DNA from: Halostagnicola kamekurae
GTDB taxonomy: Archaea; Halobacteriota; Halobacteria; Halobacteriales; Natrialbaceae
Direction: 5' to 3'
NCBI RefSeq assembly: GCF_900116205.1
Contig: NZ_FOZS01000001.1
Coordinates: 992,001-1,056,000 of the forward strand
Length of the DNA stretch: 64,000 nucleotides
How positions within the stretch are numbered: position 1 is the stretch's first letter; each line of letters opens with the position of its first letter. The notes under the pieces are model-generated. The model had not been told where the DNA came from. It made no database searches and saw nothing but the letters and a program-made list of their open reading frames with translations. A program made the translations under genes and the position numbers. Of this stretch, positions 41,528 through 46,273 are shown in pieces.

Positions 41528-42271
41528 TCAGAGATCCATTCCGCCGTTGACGTCGATCACTTCGCCCGTCACGTACGAGGAGTCTTCGCTCGCGAGGAAT
41601 CGGACGACGGCGGCGATGTCCTCGACTTCGGCGAGTCGTTCCAAGGGAACGCTCGAGATGATCCGCTCGAGGACGTGCTCGGGAACGGTCTCGACCATGT
41701 CCGTCGCGGTAAAGCCCGGTGCGACGCAGTTCGCGGTTGAACCGCCTTGTGCGAGTTCGAGCGCGATGGTCCGGGTGAAACCGAACATACCGCTCTTGGC
41801 TGCCGCGTAGTTCGCCTGCCCGAAGTTGCCCTGCTTGCCGACGACGCTCGAGATGTTGATCAGCCGGCCCTCCTCGGCGTTCCAGATGTCGTCGTAGAAC
41901 GTCTGCGTGCAGTTGAACATTCCACCGAGGTTGACGTCCATCACGCGGTCCCAGTCCTCTCGAGACATTTCGGTGAACTGTTGATCCGCGGTGATGCCGG
42001 CGTTGTTCACCAGCACGTCCGCCGGGCCGAAGGCCTCGAGACAGACCTCACGCATGTGTTCGACGGCTTCGCGGTCGGAGACATCGGCCTGGGCGGTGAC
42101 CGCCGAACCGCCAGCGTCTTCGATCGCGTCGACCGCGTCGTGAGCGTCCCCCTCCGACGAGCGATAGTTGATGACGACGTTCGCACCCTCGGCTCCAAGG
42201 TACTCGGCGATTCCTCGACCGATGCCTCGAGCCGAGCCGGTGATGACGCAGGTTCGCCCATCCATTGACAT
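41528..42271 (-). CDS. phaB: acetoacetyl-CoA reductase PhaB (FabG-type SDR)
   Basis: NADPH-dependent reduction of acetoacetyl-CoA to (R)-3-hydroxybutyryl-CoA, the monomer for PHA. The 247-residue SDR has the TGSARGIGRGIAEYLG cofactor loop, the VNNAGITADQQF motif, and catalytic S-Y-K in NISSVVGKQG...YAAAKSGMFGF; the C-terminal end SSYVTGEVIDVNGGMDL is a hallmark of FabG/PhaB. FabG of fatty acid synthesis is the alternative, but haloarchaea lack that pathway and phaC lies next to it on the same strand. It has its own promoter. Confidence 0.93.
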   Translation of the reverse strand: MSMDGRTCVITGSARGIGRGIAEYLGAEGANVVINYRSSEGDAHDAVDAIEDAGGSAVTAQADVSDREAVEHMREVCLEAFGPADVLVNNAGITADQQFTEMSREDWDRVMDVNLGGMFNCTQTFYDDIWNAEEGRLINISSVVGKQGNFGQANYAAAKSGMFGFTRTIALELAQGGSTANCVAPGFTATDMVETVPEHVLERIISSVPLERLAEVEDIAAVVRFLASEDSSYVTGEVIDVNGGMDL

Positions 42272-42440: not shown

Positions 42441-43874
42441 TTATCTCGATCGGGCCTGCTCGATCCAGTCCTCGAGTCGTGCCGGTGAGATGCCGGTCTC
42501 CGTCGCCAGATCCGCGGCGGATGCCGCGGCCAGGTCGTCGATCGTCTCGACTCCCGCCTCTCGGAGGTCTTCGGCGTAGGCGTCGCCGACGCCGGAAAGG
42601 CCGGTGAGGTCCCCGCTGGCATCGGTTCCATCGATCTCGATTTCGACGCCGTCATCGCCGACGCCAGGGCCGGAACCGGCGTCGACGCCGGTCTCGTCAC
42701 CGTCGACATCCGTAGCGAGTGCAGCATCCGATTCGTCTGTATCCGCAGGCTCGCCACCGGCATCGGGCCCCGTCTCCGACTCGAGGTCGCTCTCTGCCCG
42801 CTGTTCGAACCACTCACAGACCTTCGGCCAGAGTTCGTCGTGGCTCCGCGAGGAGACCGACATGCCGATGTGGCCGGTGGGGAACTCGAGGATCTCGGTG
42901 TCCTCGGAGGCGATCGCGTCGTTGAACGGCTTCGAAGCGTTCGGCGGGATGAGGTGGTCGTACTCGGCGACGATCTGGAGGACCGGCATCTCGATGTTCT
43001 CGAGGTCGACGCGCCGGTCGCCGAGGACGAGTTCGTTCTCCATCAGCTTGTTCTCCTGGTAGATGTCGGTGATGAACTCCTCGTAGGTGGCCCCGGCGAC
43101 GTCGATCCCCTCCGAGAGCCAGCGTTCCATCCGCGCGAAGTTCTCGACGAAGTCCTCGTCTTCCATGTTGTCGTAAAAGCGGACGTACTTCGTCACGTTG
43201 TTCGCGACGGGATCCATCAGTGCGAAGCCGACATCGAGGAACTCGGCGGGGACGTTGCCGTAGGCGTCGGTGACCCGATCCGGGTCGTAGTAGTCTTCGT
43301 CGCCCCACAGTTCGAGGACGCCGCCGTCGCCGGCGAAGCAGAGCCCCGACGCCATCAGTGCGAGGTTCTTGACCTTCTCCGGGTAGAGGGAGGCGTACAT
43401 GGCCGATTTCGTGCCGCCCATGCAGTAGCCAAGGATGTTGATCTCGTCCTCGCCAGATCGGTCGCGGACGACGTCGACGCAGTTGTCGATGTACCGGTCG
43501 ACGTAGTCCTCGAGCGTGAGCGAGCGATCCAGCGCCGAAGGCTCGCCCCAGTCGATGAGGTACACGTCGAATCCGGCCTCGAGCAGCGTTTGAACGACCG
43601 ATCGGTCGGGCTGTAAGTCGAGGATATACGGTTTGTTGATCAGCGCGTAGACGATCAGGATCGGCACGTCGCGTTGCTCTTCGGTCTTCGGCTCGTAGTG
43701 TAACAACTCGAGTTTGTTCTCCTCGTAGACGACCTCGCTCGGCGTCTGGCCGACTTCGACGTTCTCGAGCGTTTCCGTCCGTTCGGGCGCCACGCGGGTC
43801 TTTTCGGCGAGCTCGGCGGCCCCTTCCCAGGCCTGCCGTTGCATGTCCATCGCGAGTGTGTATGGGTTTTTCAT
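42441..43874 (-). CDS. phaC: class III PHA synthase PhaC with C-terminal helix-hairpin-helix domain
   Basis: Polymerises (R)-3-hydroxyacyl-CoA into polyhydroxyalkanoate, with PhaE. The 477-residue protein has an alpha/beta hydrolase core: lipase-like box LGYCMGGT with nucleophile C151, the DWGEPS segment, the catalytic Asp in [10 protein letters not shown], and His in GHIGMSVS. Residues about 367-422 form an acidic linker. Residues 423-477 ([19 protein letters not shown]...LEDWIEQA) form a helix-hairpin-helix domain of the GLSGVG type, as seen in DNA-binding proteins. Haloarchaeal PhaC is known to carry a longer C-terminus; the HhH reading is mine from the sequence. Downstream of phaE with a 25-base gap. 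Confidence 0.95.
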
Positions 43875-43899: not shown

Positions 43900-44454
43900 T
43901 CAGTCCCCGGATTCGTCTTCGAGGTGCTCGAGGACTCGATCGAGCTTCCGCTCGACGGCGTGTTGGCGTCGCTCGAGTTCGACGAGGCGGTCGCCGACTT
44001 CGACCACGTCGCTCTCGGTCGCGAACCCGAGCGTTCGTAGCGTCGTTTCGGCGGCTTCGTCGGCCTGCTGTTGGGCCTCGAGCACGTCGCCGACGGTTTC
44101 GCCGGTCATCTTGGCGAACGCCGTCGTGGACATCACGTCCTTGAACGCGTCGTTGGCCGTGTTGAGCCAGATGTCGCGGAACTCCTCGATGTCGACGTCC
44201 TCGCCCTCGAACTGGTCGTTCATCCGCTCGACCATCTGCTGGGAGGCGTCCATCCACGTCTCGTAGGCTCGAGCGTAGCCCTCGACGCCCTCGGAGATGT
44301 CGTTCTCCTCGGTGGCTTCGCCGACCGTCTCCGACCAACTCTCGACGAACTGGGCCTGGGCTTCCATGTTCTGCTCGAGCGCCTCGAGAAACTGTTCGTT
44401 CCACTGCTCGGCCGCGGCGTTCCAGTCGTGCATCTGGGATGCTGGGTCTGTCAT
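43900..44454 (-). CDS. phaE: PHA synthase subunit PhaE
   Basis: Non-catalytic partner of the class III synthase. The 184-residue protein is helical and acidic, with two long coiled-coil-like parts (about 20-110 and 130-180, ending [27 protein letters not shown]). Its size matches haloarchaeal PhaE, which is about half of the bacterial protein. It activates PhaC and helps attach it to the granule. Conserved aromatic residues W10-W18 ([13 protein letters not shown]) are typical of the family. Middle gene of phaR-P-E-C. Confidence 0.92.
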
Positions 44455-44493: not shown

Positions 44494-44979
44494 CTACGCG
44501 CCGGCGTCGAACTTCTCGGCGGCATCTTCGACGTTCTCGGCGACGGCCGTGACGTTGGCTTCGGCCTGCTCGTGGGCGTCGAGGAACGCGTCGAAGGAGC
44601 TATCGACGGCGTCGGTGTAGCTGTCTGCGAACTCGTCGTAGGCTTCGGCGGAGTCCTCGATGGCGTCCTGGAAGGTCTCGAGGGTCTCTGTCTGCGCTTC
44701 GGTCGCGTTCTCGAAGCCTTCGTCGACGAGCGCGCGGAGTTCGTCGACGTCGGCGGCGTCCTCCGGAAGTGACGCCTCGACGGCGTCGAGCCACGCGTGG
44801 ATCGCACCGCTCGTCACGTCGGCGTTTCGCTCGAGCGCGGAACTCGAGGTGTCGACGACGGTGGCGAAGGCTTCGATCGACTGTTTCTGGGCTTCGACGG
44901 CGTCGTGGGTGAGCGTCTGGCTCTGTTTCACTGCGGTGCGCTGTGCGTCGAACAGGTGAGTGAGTGGGTTCTGTGTCAT
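44494..44979 (-). CDS. phaP: phasin PhaP
   Basis: Granule-surface protein. Start at the ATG at 44979, giving 161 residues with MTQNPLTHLFDAQRTAVKQS; an upstream frame overlaps phaR. The sequence is strongly helical and amphipathic, acidic, poor in Cys and aromatic residues, and repeats QAN/EA-rich stretches typical of phasins that coat PHA granules and keep them small. It lies one base behind phaR, so the two are tightly coupled in translation. Confidence 0.9.
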   Translation of the reverse strand: MTQNPLTHLFDAQRTAVKQSQTLTHDAVEAQKQSIEAFATVVDTSSSALERNADVTSGAIHAWLDAVEASLPEDAADVDELRALVDEGFENATEAQTETLETFQDAIEDSAEAYDEFADSYTDAVDSSFDAFLDAHEQAEANVTAVAENVEDAAEKFDAGA

Positions 44980-44980
44980 G

Positions 44981-45301
44981 TTATTCGTCCTCTCGGTCGC
45001 GTTTGACGGGGACGACGATCGTCTGCACGATGTCTCCTTCTTCGATATCAAGGGCGTCGCGTTCGGGGCCGGGAATGCTGACTCGGCCGCCGCTCTGGAC
45101 ACGGGCCTTGAACGTCGCCGTGCCCATGTTCATCGGACCGAGCGACGACATTCCCTCGAGCGGGTTCGCCGTACCGGCCTGCATCATCTGTTTCAGCATC
45201 TCCTGCTGGGATTGTGCGACCTGCTCACCGGCTTCCTGCATCTGCTCTGTAAACATCGCGGGCGGGAACCACGGTGATCGGTCGGAGTCGTCCGTCATCA
45301 T
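44981..45301 (-). CDS. phaR: PHA-locus regulator PhaR (AbrB/SpoVT domain)
   Basis: A 106-residue protein with two parts: an N-terminal helical, Gln/Met-rich region (1-~55, likely granule- or phasin-binding) and a C-terminal AbrB/SpoVT swapped-hairpin domain (FKARVQSGGRVSIPGPERDALDIEEGDIVQTIVVPV). By family knowledge a protein of this type, PhaR, represses the phaRP promoter in Haloferax mediterranei and binds granules. It begins with two ATGs; the TATA element CTTATTAGG lies about 20-30 bases before the first. First gene of the phaR-P-E-C operon, divergent from maoC. Confidence 0.88.
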   Translation of the reverse strand: MMTDDSDRSPWFPPAMFTEQMQEAGEQVAQSQQEMLKQMMQAGTANPLEGMSSLGPMNMGTATFKARVQSGGRVSIPGPERDALDIEEGDIVQTIVVPVKRDREDE

Positions 45302-45387: not shown

Positions 45388-45568
45388 CTAGTTGTTCATA
45401 TACGGTCCGGAAATTCACAATTCGACATCGATATCGACGCGTCCGAAATCCTAAATGCGACACAGATGTTCTGAAATGCGCCGTGATTCCGATTCTCGAG
45501 TTGTTAAAACGATTCCGGCTGGAGCCAAAGGAGACTTAACCGCGACGCACGTACGGAAATCGTATCAA

Positions 45569-46273
45569 ATGTCCCAACAGAATTCGGGGAAATCGGACTT
45601 TTCCGCCATGACCGACGCCTGGTCGGCGATGACCCAGAGCATCATTCGGACCACGGCTGCGGCCAACCGCGCTGCGGTCTCCGCGATGGTTCCGGCGATG
45701 GAAGCGACCGAGTCCAACGACGACTCGAGTCGGACGCCGGCAGCCGACCGGCACTCGGACGGTTCGGAGTCCGCCGGCGCGTCCACAGACATCATCCCAG
45801 CGACGATCCCGTCCGTCGACTACTCGGACCTCGACTGGGAGTTCGAACGCACCGTCGACGACCCGTCCCACATCACCGTCGGCGACACCGTCACGTTCGA
45901 GAAAACGCTCACGGACGAAGACGTGCGAGCGTTCGCCCACAGCAGCGGCGATACGAACCGCCTCCACCTCGACGACGAGTTCGCAGCCGAGACGCGCTTC
46001 GGGAACCGCATCGTCCACGGAACCCTCGTCTCCGGACTCATCAGCGCCGCGCTCGCCCGACTCCCCGGGCTCACGATCTACCTCTCACAGGACCTCGAGT
46101 TCCGGGGACCGGTCGAGATCGGCGACCGCGTCTCCGCGCGCGTCGAAATCGTCGATGCCCTCGGCGACGACCAGTATCGACTCGAGACGCTCGTTCGCGA
46201 CGAGGACGCTGACGAGACCGTCGTCGAGGGGGAAGCCGTCGTCCTCATCGACGAGTTCCCCCCGGCGGAGTGA
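45569..46273 (+). CDS. MaoC-family hydratase with phasin-like N-terminal region
   Basis: A 234-residue protein. Residues about 95-234 are a hot-dog-fold MaoC dehydratase: the catalytic motif GDTNRLHLDDEFAAETRFGNRIVHGTLVSG contains the D-x-x-x-x-H pair of (R)-specific enoyl-CoA hydratases (PhaJ), which supply PHA monomer from fatty acid oxidation. Residues 1-~50 form amphipathic helix of Ala, Met, Thr and Asn (TDAWSAMTQSIIRTTAAANRAA) and a Ser/Asp-rich linker follows; this resembles phasins. Start at 45569, 30 bases after a CTTAACC TATA element. Divergent from phaR, as in other haloarchaeal PHA loci. Confidence 0.9.
   Translation: MSQQNSGKSDFSAMTDAWSAMTQSIIRTTAAANRAAVSAMVPAMEATESNDDSSRTPAADRHSDGSESAGASTDIIPATIPSVDYSDLDWEFERTVDDPSHITVGDTVTFEKTLTDEDVRAFAHSSGDTNRLHLDDEFAAETRFGNRIVHGTLVSGLISAALARLPGLTIYLSQDLEFRGPVEIGDRVSARVEIVDALGDDQYRLETLVRDEDADETVVEGEAVVLIDEFPPAE

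Follow-up and report, generated by a model that had tools for sequence, protein, structure and literature searches.

We found that the class III polyhydroxyalkanoate (PHA) synthase PhaC encoded in the window, the 64,000-nucleotide stretch of DNA analysed here, ends in a genuine helix-hairpin-helix (HhH) domain, as judged from its sequence and predicted structure. The domain is predicted to fold on its own at the end of a flexible linker, is conserved and under purifying selection at the sequence level, and is restricted to haloarchaea in the samples read. We tentatively propose, in part by analogy with bacterial systems, that haloarchaeal PhaC is a self-anchoring synthase whose HhH domain docks to a partner, with nucleoid DNA as the leading candidate, and that this would spread the granules. 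That the target is DNA, and that the domain plays any part in granule partition, we infer from the features described below.

The minus strand carries, in order, phaR, a putative phaP, phaE, phaC and an SDR reductase gene, with a MaoC-like gene lying divergently. The order maoC-phaRPEC is known from haloarchaea (PMC7137286), and phaR was identified by its position within a cluster of this type. PhaC scores 431.8 bits against TIGR01836, above the curated cut-off of 365.3, which makes it a class III PHA synthase; as expected for this class, phaE adjoins phaC, with a PF09712 match in 43900-44454. The features are:

41528-42271, minus strand: SDR reductase, probable phaB, downstream of phaC (adh_short_C2, 211 bits).
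42441-43874, minus strand: phaC, class III PHA synthase catalytic subunit, 477 aa (TIGR01836, Abhydrolase_1, PhaC_N).
42444-42611, minus strand: C-terminal HhH domain of PhaC, residues 422-477 (HHH_5, AlphaFold, retention across the order).
42612-42794, minus strand: acidic, largely disordered linker of PhaC, residues 361-421 (composition and pLDDT).
43900-44454, minus strand: phaE, small class III synthase subunit, 184 aa (PF09712, 34.8 bits, residues 90-166 only).
44494-44988, minus strand: putative phaP phasin, 164 aa if translated from an ATG start inside the open reading frame 44494-45102 (cluster position; weak, sub-cut-off Phasin_2 match).
44981-45301, minus strand: phaR, AbrB-like regulator, 106 aa (TIGR01439, 20.9 bits, sub-cut-off; cluster position).
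45455-46273, plus strand: MaoC-like hydratase of the phaJ type, divergent (MaoC_dehydratas, 75.9 bits).

The Pfam family HHH_5 (PF14520) matches residues 422-475 of PhaC at 51.6 bits (E 1.3e-13, cut-off 27), well beyond what chance would give. A preliminary description of this DNA had quoted an HhH sequence from residue 423, and its letters agree exactly with the translated open reading frame; LEDWIEQA, given there as the end of the protein, is present, but three further residues follow. An AlphaFold model of the domain, run on a 52-sequence alignment, consists of four helices (pLDDT 95.6) and has a dual-HhH fold, shared with the N-terminal domain of RadA/Rad51 and with NusA AR2. Both were also among the top Foldseek matches in the PDB (best E 0.011, probability 1.00, TM mostly 0.7-0.85), and modest E-values are to be expected for a query of 59 residues. 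A profile search with the domain ranked archaeal Rad51 (1pzn, 2.4e-10) first, followed by ribosomal protein L32e (5e-10). By profile and fold together, the nearest relative is the RadA/Rad51 N-terminal HhH (45% identity to 1pzn), which is part of a DNA-filament-forming ATPase and differs in its hairpin, with Thr in place of the Tyr of PhaC. Family match, model and fold comparison support the HhH fold originally claimed.

The PhaC C-terminus runs 117 residues past residue 360 and is, as previously stated, longer than that of bacterial class III enzymes. In the full-length AlphaFold model the core and the HhH domain are confident, with a low-confidence stretch between them (pLDDT below 50 at residues 371-375 and 380-419). 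This linker spans 61 residues (361-421) with 21 Asp/Glu and no Lys/Arg, so that the earlier figure of a 55-residue acidic linker was approximately right. Two short motifs common to other genera lie within the window's linker (42612-42794), each shared by some lineages only: one of the DAALAEDVAGDET type in 18 genes (the window and 17 others), and one of the EIEI type, VEIEID in the window, in 25 genes (the window and 24 others). They are possible candidates for short binding motifs. On plasmid pHME505 of Haloferax mediterranei, a PhaC3-type gene (L133:2977-4677) carries an extra segment of ~100 residues without a Pfam match between core and HhH, and the arrangement in Salinirubellus (L134) resembles it. 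A small open reading frame overlapping the 3′ end of the Salinirubellus phaC (L134:4566-4814) encodes a second HhH (82 aa, HHH_5 34.4 bits), possibly a tandem HhH or a frameshifted repeat.

We assessed how widely the domain is kept. Matches to TIGR01836 occur in 102 of 195 genomes of the order, and 103 of the 110 PhaC loci read there have the HhH at or near the C-terminus. The linker preceding it has a median length of 55 residues (range 4-142), and the domain persists even where only 4-10 linker residues are left. Seven loci lack it. One (L110) ends at a contig end; another (L083, G057 C16) is a paralog with a stop codon within the linker, beyond which the HhH is still readable in frame; that genome's intact PhaC (L044) has the domain. 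The other five (L122, L123, L127-L129) are divergent or shortened paralogs; in two of these, L122 and L123, the protein stops after a short basic tail, which in L122 reads SKPRQNHRGRFSTDSLHRKPAH. In a second sample, drawn from a class III search and comprising 80 named loci, the HhH was present in 13/13 haloarchaeal PhaCs and in 0/67 others (bacterial, Methanoperedens, Thaumarchaeota and Thermoplasmata). Judged by open-frame length alone, PhaC is short in other families of the window's phylum. A tblastn search of plasmids with the HhH as the only query gave no match, possibly owing to the low-complexity filter. Retention in every haloarchaeal PhaC, a point raised in the preliminary description, is thus near-universal but not complete, given the five paralogs, and within the samples read the HhH tail is confined to haloarchaea by sequence.

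Selection was estimated from four gene pairs; the sequences in one of these were too similar for useful values. The window gene and L024, from the same genus, give a dN/dS of ~0.08 for the core; the HhH has 0.12-0.18 and the linker 0.32-0.49, varying with where the boundaries are placed, and the ranking is the same in two further pairs. These segment values indicate that the HhH is under purifying selection and the linker far less constrained. Such constraint, together with retention in 103/110 genes and persistence where the linker is almost gone, argues against a generic, mobile haloarchaeal tail that aids solubility or stability in high salt and has no dedicated partner. This explanation does account for an unrelated acidic protein (L131) encoded in the window's genome, whose terminal HhH matches that of PhaC at 33/52 residues, a closeness also seen between different PhaC copies, and for the HhH of L32e, also in this genome; we nevertheless consider it improbable. 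The acidic protein starts about MGLLQKLKSVLGLG; its gene (L131:2027-3865, G000 C2) is flanked by aroE-like and trpE-like genes and has its HhH in the 3′ part.

The residues around the hairpin bear on whether the domain could bind DNA. All 102 PhaC HhH copies have a GhG hairpin. At position +4 from its first Gly there is Lys in 0/102 and Arg in 1/102, with Thr, Ala or Ser instead, and position +5 is Tyr or Phe throughout (102/102). The residues after the PhaC hairpin therefore typically read P-T/A-Y, as against x-K-T in the GxGxKT type of PolX, TopA, EndoIII and other DNA enzymes of the same genome; Lys/Arg followed by Thr/Ser, as in its PolX, LigA and TopA, is absent. RadA of this genome has A-T at these positions, so the basic pair is not an absolute requirement for a DNA-binding HhH. 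Lys is nearly missing altogether (19 in 102 domains), and Arg14 of the hairpin helix is found in 0/22 copies from the window's family compared to 72/80 elsewhere; net charge over positions 9-19 is -2.1 in that family and -0.4 elsewhere. Net charge of the whole domain was discarded as a test, since bona fide DNA enzymes of this genome have HhH domains of similar acidity (RadA -7, TopA -9, LigA -11, PhaC -9); for the same reason, overall acidity is no objection to DNA binding. Taken together, RadA and the acidic DNA enzymes suggest that the missing Lys/Arg makes DNA binding by the PhaC HhH less probable but still plausible. A literature search found no reports of DNA binding by a haloarchaeal PhaC HhH.

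The same residues would also suit a protein-docking or oligomerisation module similar to NusA AR2, one that binds a granule partner such as PhaE, PhaP, PhaR or another PhaC and supports activity in high salt without touching DNA. NusA AR2 is an acidic dual HhH that ends a multi-domain protein, is among the nearest folds (TM 0.81, 37% identity) and is known to dock a protein, SuhB (PMC6614801). The profile search also matched HhH tails of the PhaC type to complex I and reaction-centre subunits. Basic residues in the PhaC domain are few, and its aromatic positions are nearly invariant (Tyr11 in 99/102 copies, with Tyr or Phe in all, and Trp48 in 100/102). Compared with its bacterial counterpart, PhaE of haloarchaea is a much smaller protein, and its match to the PhaE model covers the end of that model only; the PhaC tail could stand in for the missing part. 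According to later papers, the long C-terminus of haloarchaeal PhaC is needed for full activity, and its truncation lowers or eliminates activity and impairs PHA synthesis; their accounts of Han et al. 2010 range from 'indispensable' to 'less accumulation', and as cited there the truncations lump linker and HhH together. The GhG hairpin in every copy speaks against docking to protein, as does a PhaC3-type protein of H. mediterranei that retains the HhH without an adjoining phaE, and no partner protein is known. On balance, we regard protein docking as nearly as probable as a DNA tether.

DNA tethering remains our preferred reading, by a tentative judgement. Haloarchaeal PhaC would consist of an alpha/beta-hydrolase core, a flexible acidic tether and an independently folded dual-HhH docking domain. 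The likeliest partner of this domain would be nucleoid DNA, contacted weakly and without sequence preference, and the many PhaC copies on a granule could sum to a salt-resistant attachment. Attachment of this kind would distribute granules over the chromosome, as PhaM, PhaF and PhaH do in bacteria. In favour are the fold with its RadA/Rad51 relatives, the GhG hairpin in all copies, the retention and the purifying selection, together with the analogy to PhaH and the Lys-rich tails found at the same place in several non-halophilic lineages. Against it weigh the lack of Lys and near-lack of Arg after the hairpin, the near-invariant Tyr, the loss of Arg14 in the window's family and the protein-binding look-alike NusA AR2. 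A pure tether, moreover, does not predict the impaired PHA synthesis that later papers report for C-terminal truncation.

Both the PhaC HhH and the nucleoid idea are already in print for H. mediterranei: a 2025 study described a C-terminal region that is disordered and contains an HhH DNA-binding domain, called of unknown function there and absent from bacterial PhaC, likened it to Caulobacter PhaH and pointed to nucleoid contact (PMC12028471). It was the sole match in a full-text search for HhH and polyhydroxyalkanoate synthase. In its AlphaFold model the H. mediterranei enzyme has, like the window's, a core and a long C-terminal extension ending in HhH; the window PhaC comes from a different lineage and has a linker of its own and a hairpin that is more acidic. 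In Caulobacter crescentus, PhaH (Salinas et al. 2023) is an HhH protein on the granule, described second-hand as DNA-binding and as positioning and spreading granules along the nucleoid (PMC13052382; PMC12028471). It is a phasin whereas PhaC is the synthase, and we draw the likeness from these published descriptions. PhaM and PhaF, reviewed with PhaH as granule-nucleoid tethers (PMC13052382), have the function proposed here for the PhaC HhH; unlike PhaC, they are separate proteins with histone-like basic tails and no HhH.

Tails of a different kind occur on other PhaCs. Among the 67 non-haloarchaeal proteins, 20 have a tail of at least 10 residues past the core, mostly rich in Lys/Arg; nine of these come from Methanoperedens or Methanosarcinales relatives. 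Examples range from KGAKSKPAGKKTSTKKKK in Rhizobiaceae to a PAKKA-like repeat in Nitrospirota, and L140, L150, L177, L194 and others carry such Lys/Arg-rich, partly PAKKA-like ends. Some recall the PAKKA/histone-like tails of PhaM and PhaF. Among tails of at least 15 residues (n = 19), 63% have a net charge of at least +5 in their last 20 residues, compared to 16% of 232 neighbouring open reading frames (Fisher p 2e-5); as the tails are partly akin and the control frames were not matched for disorder, we treat this pattern as a lead and not as a result. It fits a PhaC end that serves as an anchor. A more general and rather doubtful extension is that anchors recur at the far C-terminal end of class III PhaC, with Lys-rich PAKKA-like tails in several non-halophilic lineages and a folded HhH on an acidic tether in haloarchaea, the synthase itself placing granules on the chromosome. 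Binding by charge alone should fail in molar salt, which would explain a folded domain in place of a basic tail.

What is new here is the survey of the HhH, the analysis of selection and hairpin residues, and the comparison of tails. Our literature search found no explanation of how archaeal granules are shared between daughter cells. If the domain docks to protein, it may account for the lost activity of truncated haloarchaeal PhaC. If instead the synthase bears its own nucleoid anchor, a domain of 55 residues might offer a way to tune how large and how numerous the granules of a bioplastic producer are.
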